DNA of 64,000 nucleotides from Deltaproteobacteria bacterium (GTDB taxonomy: Bacteria; Desulfobacterota; Desulfuromonadia; Geobacterales; Pseudopelobacteraceae): the NCBI GenBank assembly GCA_019162745.1, contig JAFLLC010000039.1, forward strand, positions 1-64,000. The letters run 5' to 3'. Position 1 is the first letter of the stretch; every line of letters begins with the position of its first letter. Below are positions 31,013 through 36,595 of the stretch, piece by piece. The position numbers and the translations under genes are program-made. The notes under the pieces were generated by a model. It made no database searches. It saw only the letters and a program-made list of their open reading frames with translations, and was not told the DNA's origin.

Positions 31013-31384
31013 ATGATCAAAAAAATCCTGCTTGTTGATGATTCTCCAATTTCCCGAAGAATGATGAAGAGCTGTATTCCCAAAGACCGCGGTTATGAAC
31101 TATTTGAGGCGTGTGATGGTTTAGCCGGATTTGAAGCGTATAAAGAAATCCGCCCTGACGTAACATTCATGGACCTCACCATGCCGGTCATGGATGGCTC
31201 CGAAGCAACCGGTAAAATCAGGGAATTCAACCCGGAAGCCGTTGTCATTGTCTGCACCGCCGATATTCAGATCAAATCCATCACGAATGCGCTGAACCAG
31301 GGAGCACTCATGGTTATGAAAAAACCCCCATCCAAGGAAACCGTCGAAGACGCACTTTTAAAAGCTGATGAGCACATCGGATAA
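31013..31384 (+). CDS. Single-domain CheY-like response regulator
   Basis: A 123-residue stand-alone receiver. Acidic pair in LLVDDSPISRR, phospho-acceptor Asp in TFMDLTMPVMDG (about residue 54), Thr in VIVCTAD and Lys in VMKKPPS. No output domain, so it acts by protein contact, as CheY does. First of three genes (CheY-like, CheC-like, PAS-GGDEF) with 4-base spacing or overlap. The start is fixed by the domain edge even though no ribosome site is visible. Confidence 0.92.
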   Translation: MIKKILLVDDSPISRRMMKSCIPKDRGYELFEACDGLAGFEAYKEIRPDVTFMDLTMPVMDGSEATGKIREFNPEAVVIVCTADIQIKSITNALNQGALMVMKKPPSKETVEDALLKADEHIG

Positions 31385-31388
31385 AGAT

Positions 31389-32027
31389 ATGGACTACTGT
31401 CTCGACACCATTTCGGAAGAAGAAAAAGAGATTCTTCAGGAAATCATGAATATCGCCTTTGGCAAGGCTGCTGCAGACCTTGCCGAAGTCATCAATATAT
31501 TCGTTGTTCTGAGCGTGCCGCATATCGAAATACTGAATGCCCAGGATCTGCCAGAATATCTCAAATCGCAGGTCAGTGCGTATGACCGCGTCAGCATTGT
31601 TGAACAGAATTTCTGGGGAGATTTCAAAGGAAGCGCTTTCCTCGTTTTTCAGGCCAGCGCCGGCAGAGAGCTCATTTCTCTTTTTAGTGATGACTCCGAA
31701 GACTTCGGCTCGGAGCCGATCGACGCATTGGAAAAGGAAACACTGATGGAGGTGGGCAATATCCTTATCGGCGCCTGCGTCGGAAAGCTGTCCGAACTAC
31801 TCGGCGACGCCGTAACCTATTCGCCACCCCGCGTCGTCACGGAAAACAGTTCTAATGATGCAATCCCGGTAAACATCTTTGAAAGCGGCTCCTCTGCAAT
31901 CGTGCTGAAAACGGTCTTCTGTTTCAACGAACGTAATGTAAACGGCTTCCTCTTCCTGGTAACCAGCAACGATTCGATCCTCTGGCTGAAAAAATCTCTG
32001 GCCGCCTTTATGGAACAGTACGAATGA
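31389..32027 (+). CDS. CheC/CheX-like chemotaxis phosphatase
   Basis: A 212-residue protein. Two copies of the CheC active-site helix are visible: LQEIMNIAFGKAAADLAEV near residue 20 and METLMEVGNILIGACVGKL-like near 125, each with the Glu-x2-Asn pair that attacks the aspartyl phosphate of CheY. It probably dephosphorylates the CheY-like protein encoded just upstream. ATG 31389 is four bases after the CheY stop; an in-frame ATG at 31368 would add seven residues and overlap it. Its own stop overlaps the next start (ATGA). Confidence 0.85.
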   Translation: MDYCLDTISEEEKEILQEIMNIAFGKAAADLAEVINIFVVLSVPHIEILNAQDLPEYLKSQVSAYDRVSIVEQNFWGDFKGSAFLVFQASAGRELISLFSDDSEDFGSEPIDALEKETLMEVGNILIGACVGKLSELLGDAVTYSPPRVVTENSSNDAIPVNIFESGSSAIVLKTVFCFNERNVNGFLFLVTSNDSILWLKKSLAAFMEQYE

Positions 32028-32929
32028 CGTTGAATGAGCTTACCCAGATCTTTGACACCTTCAACTTCGGTCTGGTCGTTCTTGACAGGGATATAAAGAT
32101 TCAATACTGGAATCGCTGGATGGCGATGCACAGTGGGACCCCCTCAGACCAGATGGTTGGCGAACCCCTTTTTGATTTTTTCCCGCATTTAAGCACTCCC
32201 AGCTTCAACAAGAACTGCAAAGCGGTACTCTCCTTCGGCAATTTTGCGTTCTTTTCCCAAAAACTGCATCGTTTTCTATTTCCCTTCAAACCGGACAGCT
32301 CCTTCGGCTATCGTTTTGACCTGATGCAGCAGAGCTGTACGATGGGACCGCTCCGCTCCGAAGACAATTCGATCACCGGCCTCTTCCTGATTGTCCAGGA
32401 TGTTACCGAGCTTGCCACCTACGAGCAAAAACTGGTCGAAATGAACACTAAAGATGCGCTGACCGGCATTTACAACCGCAGATTTCTGGAATCCCGCCTG
32501 CAGGAGGAATGTAACAGACAGCAGAGACATTTCAGGCAGCTGAGCCTGATTATGATCGACATAGATTTTTTCAAGAAGGTGAACGACACCTACGGTCATC
32601 AGTGCGGAGACCTGGTTCTGCAGTCCGTGGCGGCAAAAGCAGCAGCAGTCATCAGAAGTACAGATTTTATCGCCCGTTACGGCGGCGAGGAGTTCTGCTG
32701 CCTGCTGCCGGAAACTCCCGCCGATGCCGCAGAAACGGTAGCCGAACACATAAGAGCCCATATAGAAGAGATGGAAAACAATTTCGAGGGCATCTCCGTC
32801 AAGGTCACCATCAGCCTCGGGATTTCCAGCTTCGCAGCTGAAGACACCCCCGAAACACTTCTGAAAAGGGCTGATGACGCGCTCTATCAGGCAAAACATT
32901 CCGGCAGAAACCGATTCATCAGACTTTAA
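32024..32929 (+). CDS. PAS-GGDEF diguanylate cyclase
   Basis: A 301-residue cytoplasmic enzyme that makes c-di-GMP from two GTP. An N-terminal PAS-like domain (about 1-135) begins LTQIFDTFNFGLVVLDRDIK and a short helix links it to the GGDEF domain (about 140-300). The active motif is intact (GGEEF, in RYGGEEFCCLLPE) and the product-inhibition I-site RXXD is present five residues before it (RSTD). With the CheY-like and CheC-like genes upstream, a phosphorylation-tuned c-di-GMP output is plausible. Confidence 0.93.
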   Translation: MTLNELTQIFDTFNFGLVVLDRDIKIQYWNRWMAMHSGTPSDQMVGEPLFDFFPHLSTPSFNKNCKAVLSFGNFAFFSQKLHRFLFPFKPDSSFGYRFDLMQQSCTMGPLRSEDNSITGLFLIVQDVTELATYEQKLVEMNTKDALTGIYNRRFLESRLQEECNRQQRHFRQLSLIMIDIDFFKKVNDTYGHQCGDLVLQSVAAKAAAVIRSTDFIARYGGEEFCCLLPETPADAAETVAEHIRAHIEEMENNFEGISVKVTISLGISSFAAEDTPETLLKRADDALYQAKHSGRNRFIRL

Positions 32930-32999: not shown

Positions 33000-33614
33000 T
33001 CACACTTCCAGATTCATTTCAGGCTGAAGCAGCCTGTTTCCCTCACGCATGAACGGAATCGACACCAGACGCGGAGATGAGAGTTCCACGCTAAAGGAAA
33101 CCAAAAACAAAGGGTTGTTGCGCTTCTCTTCTACCAGGGTCGACAACAGGATCAGCTCTGCCATCGCGGGGACATCCGCCTCTGCAACCGTCACCGGCTC
33201 AACCGGAAGATCCCGTACAGGTGACAAATGGAGAGAGGGAAATCGTACCGTCATATTCCTTCCCAGTCTGATCGACTGCGGCGGCGGTAGTAAAAATGCA
33301 GGTACAAAAACTAACGGAGCTTCGTTGGGAGCTGCAGCTGTTTTCACCGAACCGCACATTTTCATGAAAATCATGGTATTATCCACAACCCCTTCCTGAG
33401 AGTTGATTATGAACGATGCGTACCAGAACGGCAGTAAAATATCGCCGCTTCCCGACAAATGATCAACCTCCCTCGGCACAAGCAGCCCCCCTGCCAGTTC
33501 CCAGACACTCCCGCAGCCGCTGCACTGATAGGCCACCTGTTCTTTGCCCGCCGTCATCCTCGCGGCACACCGCCCGCAGACCAGAGGCACGATCCTGAAT
33601 CCGGCATCAGCCAC
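33000..33614 (-). CDS. Zinc-ribbon protein, third of a coupled trio
   Basis: A 204-residue protein starting at GTG 33614, which overlaps the stop of the gene before it. It has four cysteines in CX2C-X14-CX2C at 13-34 (CGRC..CSGC), then GDILLPFWYASFIIN and a beta-rich C-terminal part with no membrane helix. An in-frame ATG at 33674 would add 20 residues and a 68-base overlap. The ribbon spacing and the PFW motif are shared with its two upstream neighbours, so all three appear related. Function unknown. Confidence 0.72.
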   Translation of the reverse strand: MADAGFRIVPLVCGRCAARMTAGKEQVAYQCSGCGSVWELAGGLLVPREVDHLSGSGDILLPFWYASFIINSQEGVVDNTMIFMKMCGSVKTAAAPNEAPLVFVPAFLLPPPQSIRLGRNMTVRFPSLHLSPVRDLPVEPVTVAEADVPAMAELILLSTLVEEKRNNPLFLVSFSVELSSPRLVSIPFMREGNRLLQPEMNLEV

Positions 33615-34578
33615 GCTGCACCCCCGCACTCCGCTTCGAAGTTCCGGCGAGTAGCTTGATGATTGAGGGGGCATCCAGAGTTCCTGTCCGCCATTTAAGC
33701 AGATAAACCGCCAGAGCAGTCAGCGCCACACCGGCAGTAGGCGTTGTCGTCCACCCCAGCAGAACCATGGCGATAAACGCCAGCGGCAGGAATCGTTCAC
33801 GCCGCTCTTCGCCCGGAAATTGACACCTGATAACATCACCGTTAACCGCATCAATCGCCACAGGATAAACACGCCCCCCCCTTGTAAAGAGCAGTCGCCA
33901 GACCGGATAGTACGTGAGTGCGAGCCATTCTGAAGAAATGCGGACGCGCTCTTCCCGGCGTATCGTCCCTTCTGAATTCCCGCCCCCTCGAGTGACGGCA
34001 AGCGCTTCCTGTCGCGCCTGGGCAACTCCTTTGAGCGGGTCCGCCACGGTTCCCCTGGCCGCTGTGTCCTGATAATCCAATGCTTCGCATTTCAGCACTG
34101 CGGCGGCTATGCCGACCCGCATCTGACCAAAAGAGGAGTACTCTCCGGCCGGTGTACTAAAGTCAAGCGGTTTGGCAATCAGGGAAAAACTGCGTTCATT
34201 CTCCCCTTTCACCGTACGGGTGAAGCGGGTGCCGTTTTCATCATAATCCACCTCTTCCCTGAAGGTTTCCTTCTCGCGCCACTGCCACCCTGTCGCCATC
34301 CCCCTGACCCTCCAGAACGGTAAAAAAAAGAGCGTGCCCTCTTTGAAACTGAAAGAAGTGGCGGACTCCCGCCCGGATTCCCCCGCAGCAAGCAGTTTTC
34401 GCACAGCAGTACGGGCAGCATTAAGATCGATCCGTTCCCGGATCAGCAAACGATGCACACCGCTGTCTCCGGAAATCACGGACGTAACACCGCAAAATCG
34501 GCACACGGCGCCACGATCTCCTTCGGCGCATTCAAACGGCCCGCCACAATGGGGGCATTTAAAAACAATCGTTGCCAT
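33607..34578 (-). CDS. Zinc-ribbon membrane protein, second of a coupled trio
   Basis: A 323-residue protein. N-terminal zinc ribbon CPHC-X14-CRFC (8-29), then a soluble middle with FFLPFWRVRG and later LTYYPVWRLLF. The C-terminal part has two hydrophobic helices (FLPLAFIAMVLLGW, TAGVALTALAVYLL), so it is likely anchored in the inner membrane with the ribbon in the cytoplasm. Its ATG shares one base with the preceding stop (TGATG), so translation is coupled. I do not know a characterised homologue. Confidence 0.78.
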   Translation of the reverse strand: MATIVFKCPHCGGPFECAEGDRGAVCRFCGVTSVISGDSGVHRLLIRERIDLNAARTAVRKLLAAGESGRESATSFSFKEGTLFFLPFWRVRGMATGWQWREKETFREEVDYDENGTRFTRTVKGENERSFSLIAKPLDFSTPAGEYSSFGQMRVGIAAAVLKCEALDYQDTAARGTVADPLKGVAQARQEALAVTRGGGNSEGTIRREERVRISSEWLALTYYPVWRLLFTRGGRVYPVAIDAVNGDVIRCQFPGEERRERFLPLAFIAMVLLGWTTTPTAGVALTALAVYLLKWRTGTLDAPSIIKLLAGTSKRSAGVQRG

Positions 34579-35291
34579 CAGTCTTTCCTGTCCCCGGAGC
34601 GCTCAAACCACCAGGCGGCCAACAGAATCAGGGCGATCAGCACGCTTCTCCAGAAGATATTCGGCGCCAGAGTCCCTGCAAGGAGCAACAGTGCAATATA
34701 GCCACCCAGAAACAGGAGCCGCGACGACGAGACATGGACACCGGTTTCGTCCGGCAGGTTCGGCAGGTAAACCTGCCAGGTACAGCCGGATACCGTCGCC
34801 TGACATGGCTGTCCGGATAGTTCAAAAGTGATCAGATAGAGGGGTAGCTGCAGCAGTCTGAGGCGTACCGGCGCTTCGATTCGAGCAAGGAAGGTTTCCG
34901 GTGCAATCGTTGGCTGGGGGAATGACCTGCCGGGAGGAGGAAATTCGAGATTACCGGGAGGCGGTGCGGGAGGCAGTGGATAACCATCCAGAGCGCTCCC
35001 CGCGGCCTTAAAGCGGGTGCTGCCGTTGTCGAGATCCGCAAACCAGAAGGGATGGTATCCGAACGAGATTGCAGTCGGCGCGGCAGGGACGACAGCCCCT
35101 GCAAAATCCAGCAGACCGATCAGGGCACCCCAGGCAAGCGCGTCGTTCGGCTCATGCCGAAAGTACTGTTCGGAAACGCTCTGACCACCAAAGACCCGGA
35201 ACAGGGTGCGGCATTGACTGCAGGTGTGGAAATCAGATTCTGTCAGCAGCTCAGCTTTAAAGCCGCACTGAGGGCATCTCGTGGTATTCAA
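34578..35291 (-). CDS. Zinc-ribbon membrane protein, first of a coupled trio
   Basis: A 237-residue protein. I start it at TTG 35291 because AAGGAG lies six bases upstream, whereas the first in-frame ATG (35330) sits inside a terminator-like hairpin with no spacing from its AGGGG. The ribbon CPQC-X14-CSQC begins at residue 6. The middle contains SFGYHPFWFADLD and a Pro-rich stretch (PPAPPPGN..FPPPG). Two C-terminal helices (LLFLGGYIALLLLAG and LIALILLAAWWF) anchor it. First gene of the trio. Confidence 0.78.
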   Translation of the reverse strand: MNTTRCPQCGFKAELLTESDFHTCSQCRTLFRVFGGQSVSEQYFRHEPNDALAWGALIGLLDFAGAVVPAAPTAISFGYHPFWFADLDNGSTRFKAAGSALDGYPLPPAPPPGNLEFPPPGRSFPQPTIAPETFLARIEAPVRLRLLQLPLYLITFELSGQPCQATVSGCTWQVYLPNLPDETGVHVSSSRLLFLGGYIALLLLAGTLAPNIFWRSVLIALILLAAWWFERSGDRKD

Positions 35292-35306
35292 CCGCAGCTC
35301 CTTAGT

Positions 35307-35340
35307 AAAAAAGGGGAAACCTTTCGGCATCCCCTTTTTT
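35307..35340. terminator. Bidirectional terminator upstream of the zinc-ribbon trio
   Basis: AAAAAAGGGG (35307-35316) pairs with CCCCTTTTTT (35331-35340), loop of 14 bases. It would end transcription coming from the DAHP synthase side on the minus strand, so the trio needs either its own promoter or readthrough. The stretch 35341-35584 holds no convincing gene, only a weak ATTAAGG/CCTTAAT inverted repeat (35366-35393). Confidence 0.7.
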
Positions 35341-35584
35341 AAATTCTCTCCACCCTGTCGTCAGCATTAAGGGCCTCCGGCGAGTTCCTTAATTGTGGGA
35401 GTCAGTATACTGTTTCAGGCAAACCCGCGTAAAGAAGGCAGCACACCACAGCAGGGAACAACCCCCGTTTTTTTCAGCATTCCGCCCGGGCGTTTCAACC
35501 AACGGGCAGGGTAGAGAGAACGATCAGTCAAACTATTATTACTCCGATGAATCGGACATTTCAAGCGTTTTGTATACAGAATAA

Positions 35585-36595
35585 TTATTTGCGCAAGAAA
35601 AGAGTTAACTGTGCAATTTCGCTCATCATTTGTTCAAAACCGGGAAAGGTTAGCGACTGAGGCCCATCGGAAAGCGCCTTTTCCGGTTCGGGATGCACTT
35701 CGACCAGGACGCCGTCCGCTCCGGCAACCAGTGCCGCCTTGGCCATCGGCGAAACCAGCGAGCGCTTTCCGGTTGCATGTGATGGGTCAACCATGATCGG
35801 CAGGTGCGACAGCTCTTTCACCAGCGGCACGATCGAAAGGTCCAGAGTATTACGGGTAGCGGTTTCAAAGGTTCGTATTCCCCGCTCGCAGAGGATGACC
35901 TGAGGGTTCCCTTCCGCAAGAATATATTCGGCCGCCGCCAGAAACTCTTCAACCGTGGCGCTCATCCCCCGTTTCAGCAGCACCGGTTTACGAATTTTTC
36001 CCACTTCGCGCAACAGATCAAAATTCTGCATGTTGCGGGCGCCTACCTGCAGCAGATCGGCGTACTCGGCCACCAATCCGACATTATCCGGGCTCATGAC
36101 TTCGGTCACAATAGGCAGGCCGCTCTCTTTTCCGGCGATAGCCAGCAGTTTGAGCCCCTCTTCGCGTAATCCCTGAAACGTATGAGGTCCGGTACGCGGC
36201 TTGAATGCACCGCCGCGCAGCATATCCGCCCCGCACTTTTTCACGAAGAGAGCCGTCTTGACAATCTGCTCCAGGCTCTCCACCGCGCAAGGACCACCAA
36301 CGACAACCGGACGGCATCCCTGGCCGACTTTGACTCCAGCCACATCAACTATTGTATCTTCAGGGTGGAAATCGCGCGAAACCAGCTTGTACGGTTTTGA
36401 GACGTGAATAACCCGCTGTACTCCCGGTAATTCCAGTATTTTGGAGTCATCTACATAGCCGTGGTTACCCAGCACTCCGATAGCGGTTCGTTCACTACCC
36501 GGGATCGGTTCGGCCCTGAAGCCCATCTCCTCAACTATTCTGCTAATGGCATCGACATCTGCCTGAGTGGCGTTGTGGTTCATAACTATCAGCAT
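35585..36595 (-). CDS. aroF: 3-deoxy-7-phosphoheptulonate synthase (DAHP synthase)
   Basis: A 336-residue enzyme for the first step of the shikimate pathway, condensing PEP and erythrose-4-phosphate. An N-terminal ferredoxin-like regulatory domain ([19 protein letters not shown] to about 70) precedes the barrel with [34 protein letters not shown] and [10 protein letters not shown]. This is the short type with an N-terminal domain seen in Thermotoga. The open frame starts at 36610; ATG 36595 with GGGAGA upstream is preferred. Transketolase just upstream supplies erythrose-4-phosphate. Confidence 0.93.

Follow-up and report, generated by a model that had tools for sequence, protein, structure and literature searches.

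The closest described system is the pspA-ydjGHI operon of B. subtilis. An excerpt of PMC11237479 describes YdjG as a protein in which two zinc ribbons are combined with a YpeB-related domain and a transmembrane segment, and an excerpt of PMC9239133 connects its ribbon with DNA binding. The part of PMC8581546 that we draw on describes YdjI as a soluble protein, the deletion of which lowers membrane fluidity in B. subtilis. Deletion of ydjG or ydjH abolished the membrane foci of both YdjI and PspA. In two-hybrid assays reported in the same excerpt YdjG bound YdjH, and YdjH in turn bound YdjI and PspA. In the excerpts covered, B. subtilis is the organism for which a role of a YdjI-type SPFH protein has been described, and there it is tied to PspA.

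The locus reported here is a trio of genes, designated A, B and C, in a window of 64,000 nucleotides, i.e. the whole stretch of DNA that was analysed, from genome G000 of a Geobacter-like bacterium. No description of the trio was found in the open-licence PubMed Central literature, as far as the texts seen in excerpts go. Gene B resembles YdjG in its zinc ribbon, its possibly YpeB-related domain and its membrane helix, a likeness that was drawn from the published descriptions of YdjG (PMC11237479, PMC8581546; excerpts). YdjG is encoded together with a soluble SPFH protein; the trio adjoins an SPFH gene in relatives, but is unlinked to one in the window genome. The trio further differs from the YdjG system by having one ribbon per protein instead of the two of YdjG, by consisting of three paralogues and by its soluble third subunit. 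In addition, no PspA was found, and the trio had no match to TPM.

Results

All three genes are located on the reverse strand. Gene A (34578..35291) starts with TTG and encodes 237 amino acids with a zinc ribbon, a PFW domain and two C-terminal membrane helices. Gene B (33607..34578) encodes 323 amino acids with a zinc ribbon, a PFW domain, a second motif, YYPVW, and two C-terminal helices, while gene C (33000..33614), with 204 amino acids from GTG 33614, has the zinc ribbon and the PFW domain and no membrane helix. Among the possible starts TTG 35291 fitted A best, and B was best read from ATG 34578 and C from GTG 33614. The end coordinate of gene A at 35291, which had been given in an earlier note on this DNA, is supported because a Shine-Dalgarno sequence AAGGAG (35298-35303) lies six bases 5' of this TTG. 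An alternative longer gene A from ATG 35330 would cross the terminator-type hairpin described below. In two relatives, L016 and L017, the frame orthologous to gene C likewise begins at the position of GTG 33614. As had been observed earlier, the stops and starts of the three genes overlap, by one base between A and B (TGATG) and by 8 nt between B and C (GTGGCTGA). Comparison with the nearest relative (G034) yielded dN/dS values of 0.082/0.423 for A, 0.074/0.477 for B and 0.092/0.470 for C, i.e. about 0.16-0.20 for all. Judged by these substitution rates genes A, B and C are under purifying selection. The module of three genes is real and conserved.

The motif CX2C-X14-CX2C begins at residue 6 in A, residue 8 in B and residue 13 in C. 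All four cysteines were kept in the relatives of each protein (13/13 for A, 24/24 for B and 25/25 for C) and the X14 spacing in every relative except one of C; the statement that all three proteins start with this motif was borne out. In the PFW column the exact sequence PFW was present in 10/13 relatives of A, 13/24 of B and 22/25 of C. The distance of PFW from the first cysteine is 75 residues in A, 79 in B and 49 in C. Hence, the previous placement of this motif at a similar position is right for A and B, but not for C, where it is 26-30 residues nearer to the first cysteine.

A mean Kyte-Doolittle value of 1.6 served as the mark for a membrane segment. The two C-terminal hydrophobic segments of A averaged 2.02 and 1.86, and a further segment inside the protein (residues 51-69) was weaker with 1.72. 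The C-terminal segments of B are weaker, with a best value of 1.49, and no segment of C was above the mark. The proposal of two proteins with paired C-terminal helices and a soluble third one accordingly stands for A and C; the pair of B is below the hydropathy mark, but appears in its predicted model as C-terminal helices at residues 263-278 and 280-298.

No Pfam or NCBIfam model reached its curated cut-off for A, B or C, and among solved chains, searched with B alone, there was no sequence match. Bare CX2C-X14-CX2C spacing is common among zinc ribbons and alone proves nothing. Stronger evidence of kinship comes from profile-profile comparisons with the ribbons cut away, for which the best of 40 column shuffles served as controls. 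The comparisons included a family Y (L114-L123), a two-ribbon "IPYW" protein with a C-terminal membrane helix from Geobacterales-type genomes. With deep alignments B matched A with a score of 53.7 (probability 94.7, best shuffle 17.3), C matched B with 47.6 over 135 columns (probability 92.5, best shuffle 14.1) and B matched Y with 58.8-59.4 (probability 94.8-95.1, best shuffle 28.4-32.4). The match of B and Y extends over 165-198 columns and places PYW and LLPVW..INGSTGEV of Y opposite PFW and YYPVW..VDAVNG of B. A shallower alignment of B gave weaker results, with 35.3 for B-Y against 21.9 for the shuffle and 28.7 against 19.8 for B-A. The pairs A-Y, C-Y and C-A were unconvincing alone with scores of 25-26 against shuffles of 15-21, so that B bridges the set. 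By these profile matches A, B and C are paralogues, diverged copies of one zinc-ribbon and PFW domain, and B is a distant relative of Y. The earlier note had named membership of each protein in a different known family as the result that would speak against its reading; instead, there was no curated match, and the profiles unite the three.

Ribbon matches of the trio below threshold included TFIIB, RNA polymerase and ribosomal ribbons. A defence system was considered and rejected: PADLOC gave no match except HEC-08 with an E of 0.058, which covered the ribbon of the longer C frame (residues 17-56). A phage or mobile origin was rejected as well; a scan of viral contigs with A alone gave no relative, and the best PHROGs match of the trio had an E of 0.046.

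The predicted model of gene C was confident (pLDDT 87, pTM 0.83). It had no Foldseek match under E 0.001 and reached a Z of 2.7 at most in a second structure comparison, an absence that is uninformative. The model of gene B was modest (pLDDT 65, pTM 0.44). Its best match was the YpeB C-terminal domain 5boi with a Z of 6.7 and an rmsd of 2.7 for 65 aligned residues, followed by N-terminal parts of copper amine oxidase with a Z of 5.1, where a Z under 8 can reflect merely a common arrangement. Foldseek matches of B to gyrase modulators and pore toxins were dropped; in the 50 matches listed no TM-score exceeded 0.20. Five of the 24 B members showed a sub-threshold Pfam match to PepSY/YPEB, the E for PepSY being 0.012 and thus below cut-off. 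The 5boi match agrees with these sub-threshold matches and with the published architecture of YdjG. On the basis of its model B is possibly YpeB/PepSY-like, and A likewise only through its homology to B.

With B as a query matches were obtained in 8/60 genomes of the family and 12/117 genomes of the order; in G001 only the ribbon matched, and the match in G019 was a fusion. The B profile matched in 7/146 genomes of the class and 27/148 of the phylum, short ribbon-only matches included. A scan of public genomes yielded eight loci, all from metagenome assemblies titled Geobacter, Geobacteraceae, Desulfuromonadaceae or Deltaproteobacteria. The A, B, C and SPFH profiles were applied to 28 loci, 10 from the family and order searches and 18 from the phylum search. 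Two of the 27 matching phylum genomes (G000 and G006) were already in the set; 18 of the 25 others were read, and the seven left out had short ribbon-only matches. Because the ribbon-only matches in G260, G312, G261 and G238 proved to be fusions, some of these seven may hold fusions, too.

Genes A, B and C occurred in the same order in 13 of the 28 loci, or 14 with the window. An SPFH gene was located next upstream of A-B-C in seven loci (L020, L021, L022 and L094-L097), that of L022 being Band_7_1 by Pfam, and the contig of L019 ends in a C-terminal SPFH fragment directly upstream of A. SPFH was thus present at 8/14 trio loci. No SPFH gene lies beside the trio in the other six, namely the window and L014-L018, which represent the window genome, four relatives of its genus and G003. 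Fusions were found in 15 loci of the wider phylum (L023 and L098-L111), each a single protein of 412-513 amino acids with a C-like second half. The first half matched B over most of its length in 11 of them, and weakly or by the ribbon only in L107, L109, L110 and L111. The C-like half follows the B-like half just as gene C follows gene B. Unlike the trio, the fusions are one chain, the C-like half follows without the helix pair of B as judged by an alignment, and no gene A was present in the stretches read. SPFH was next upstream of the fusion in 11/15 loci and absent from the stretch read in L098, L101 and L106; in L102, where a short contig and a frame break truncate the fusion, the position of SPFH was undecidable. 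SPFH was not selected for in this sampling, because the loci were found with B.

These data strengthen the earlier proposal that the three proteins are made together and probably form a complex: the order A-B-C is constant in the window and 13 other loci, 11 further loci have the C-like half fused to the end of a B-like half, and in four more the half in front of it matches B weakly or by the ribbon only. The survey of gene neighbourhoods suggested in the earlier note did identify SPFH as a conserved partner in relatives, but not beside the trio of the window. On the other hand, the claim that no described system has this make-up was too strong. In relatives the trio or the fusion adjoins an SPFH/Band_7_1 gene, and B, with its ribbon, possibly YpeB-like domain and membrane segment, resembles the architecture published for YdjG, which is encoded with the SPFH protein YdjI (PMC11237479, PMC8581546; excerpts).

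The window genome encodes one strong Band_7_1 (PF13421) protein at C1:143478-144581; a second, marginal match is located on C3. The Band_7_1 protein is the proposed partner of the trio and not a part of it. It has no clear membrane helix, with a best Kyte-Doolittle value of 1.27, and its C-terminal tail, which we take to be GYF-like, carries no ribbons. Proteins with 70% identity or more to this type were termed SPFH-1. SPFH-1 was present in 28 of the 60 family genomes, in 15 together with Y (a remnant in the case of G017), in six with the trio and in seven with neither. The six trio carriers (G000, G034, G037, G058, G006 and G003) all have SPFH-1, and none has Y. The remaining 32 family genomes yielded neither trio nor Y; 11 of them have an SPFH type that is more distant (42-49%), and G019 has its own SPFH and the fusion.

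Y is located within 1.5 kb of SPFH in 9/10 full-length loci, the exception being L121 with a distance of about 3 kb. In L117 (G010) SPFH and Y are separated by two small genes (L117:2654-3147), presumably BrnT/BrnA-like. In contrast to the trio, Y is a single gene with two ribbons that adjoins SPFH, and it was found in 0/6 family trio carriers. The exclusion of trio and Y had a chance probability of 0.0046 assuming independent genomes. It was dropped as a proof and is only suggestive, because the events are few: on an SPFH tree of 27 rows, from which G048 was left out as no SPFH locus was given, the trio needs only two changes; Y needs five. A short remnant of Y follows SPFH in L136 (G017), which suggests that Y decayed on site in one instance or more.

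Genes for SPFH-1 and a pepP-like Xaa-Pro peptidase are repeatedly found adjacent or close to each other in the family (L044:8461-9585, L127-L150). The pepP-like gene directly follows SPFH in 6/6 trio genomes, and the order is SPFH-Y-pepP in G031 and G043. The order SPFH-pepP is not special to the trio, because it also occurs in 3/7 genomes with neither Y nor trio (G027, G011 and G007). In some genomes Y, or Y and a gene labelled methyltransferase-like by reading, lies between SPFH-1 and the pepP-like gene. In G014, which has the more distant SPFH type, a multi-cysteine protein of 235 amino acids is encoded directly behind SPFH (L045:8086-8793) and is possibly another type of partner.

A search for PspA/IM30 (PF04012) was negative in 20/20 genomes including that of the window, while the same search was positive in 9/14 control genomes.

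A gene for 6S RNA (SsrS, RF00013) is located directly upstream of gene A on the same strand (35343..35520, reverse strand), with 50.0 bits at a gathering threshold of 46.4. It was found by scanning positions 35250-35650; the scan of the whole window had missed it. The trio begins about 50 bases after the end of the 6S RNA. The same arrangement is present in L014-L017, i.e. in 5/5 sampled genomes of the genus with the trio, and no 6S RNA was near the trio in L018 and L022, the loci of other families that were searched. Between the 6S RNA and gene A lies a terminator-type hairpin, AAAAAAGGGG..CCCCTTTTTT (35307..35340, reverse strand). Folded for five genomes of the genus it was strong and had a T run, and a simple search for terminator patterns did not list it. 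The promoter-like site TTGAAA-18-AATAAT (35535..35564, reverse strand) before the 6S RNA agrees with the consensus in 10/12 positions and is a pattern match only. Altogether three promoter-like sites were found on both strands, where 1.1 were expected. Those on the strand of the trio are located before and inside the 6S RNA, which makes read-through from the 6S promoter into the trio plausible, if unproved. On the forward strand, genes for a response regulator, a CheC/CheX-like and a PAS-GGDEF protein (31013-32929; labels by ORF reading) run toward the trio.

Discussion

We favor the view, with a probability of about one half, that the trio is a YdjG-like membrane complex in a new form made up of three genes, which serves a soluble SPFH scaffold and does so without PspA. 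This view starts from the observed family relation, conservation, neighbourhoods and fusion, and from an SPFH protein without a clear membrane helix. A, B and C would form one complex, which A and B would hold in the inner membrane via their C-terminal helix pairs. C would be its soluble subunit or adaptor, fused to B in many relatives. The complex may anchor a soluble SPFH/Band_7_1 scaffold of the YdjI type to the membrane, or serve as its adaptor there, and would then do the work of YdjG/YdjH, bringing the scaffold to the membrane for the upkeep of membrane fluidity or, presumably, under envelope stress. Because the trio domain is found beside SPFH elsewhere, the three proteins probably are membrane partners of SPFH; in the 6/14 loci without such a neighbour the link is by analogy. 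In the window genome, where SPFH is encoded elsewhere and Y is missing, the trio would be tied to the distant SPFH gene. As no PspA was found, such a system would work without it, and its downstream action must differ from that in B. subtilis. The two-hybrid data count against a simple reading, because YdjH and not YdjG contacted YdjI and PspA, while A, B and C resemble YdjG. Taken together, the trio is a variant of a partly described SPFH-partner system, neither unplaced nor categorically new.

The lack of an SPFH neighbour in the genus of the window and in G003 would also fit a trio that has left the SPFH system and now is a stand-alone, zinc-dependent membrane complex with another purpose behind the 6S RNA, e.g. 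a zinc- or redox-sensing or chaperone unit. There the trio is still under purifying selection, and its place behind the 6S RNA is conserved in the genus. Yet, 6/6 family carriers keep the SPFH-1 gene compared to 28/60 genomes overall, although the carriers are close kin, and the same trio is linked to SPFH in other families. We consider such a departure rather unlikely. The adjoining 6S RNA could further mean that the ribbons bind nucleic acid and that the trio, held at the membrane, regulates transcription or 6S RNA instead of anchoring a scaffold. The sub-threshold resemblance to TFIIB, RNA polymerase and ribosomal ribbons and the connection of the YdjG ribbon with DNA binding (PMC9239133, excerpt) point in this direction. 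However, such ribbon matches are generic, no DNA-binding domain was found in the trio, and the 6S RNA does not accompany the trio in the other families searched, so that a regulator of this kind appears improbable. That the likeness of A, B and C reflects nothing but convergence of generic zinc ribbons, with PFW motifs arisen by chance, is hardly credible. The widespread CX2C-X14-CX2C spacing, the different distance of PFW in C and the weak ribbon-free matches of C-A and A-Y would be in line with convergence, but the deep ribbon-free alignments of B-A and C-B scored about three times their best shuffles, and the gene order is identical in 14 loci, with fusions in addition.

A YdjG-like complex at an SPFH scaffold may be carried one step further. 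In this more speculative form, which we regard as doubtful, a PspA-free SPFH membrane-maintenance complex is anchored by the paralogous zinc-ribbon/YpeB-like trio, which in the genus replaced a single YdjG-like anchor and settled behind the 6S RNA gene; the anchor would be made by read-through from 6S and would track the growth phase. If the favored view is true, SPFH loci with paralogous ribbon partners, in genomes in which PspA was not found, would demonstrate a PspA-independent job of the scaffold. The anchor subunits would be named, and otherwise nameless proteins would be assigned to a family. The fusions provide a single-chain target for structural studies, and the position behind the 6S RNA suggests a measurable link to growth phase.

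A protein of 167-199 amino acids precedes SPFH in L097, L099, L100, L103, L104 and L108 (L104:9119-9631, L097:4686-5252, L100:9443-9949, L103:6382-6888; 168-188 amino acids in these four). Two of these proteins, from L104 and L097, were scanned and gave matches to NCBIfam LIMLP_15305 that stayed below its cut-off. A search with this model gave below-cut-off matches in 7/21 genomes, none of them in G000, and the excerpted literature on LIMLP_15305 amounts to one transcript table without a function. One could imagine that this LIMLP_15305-like protein stands in for PspA.
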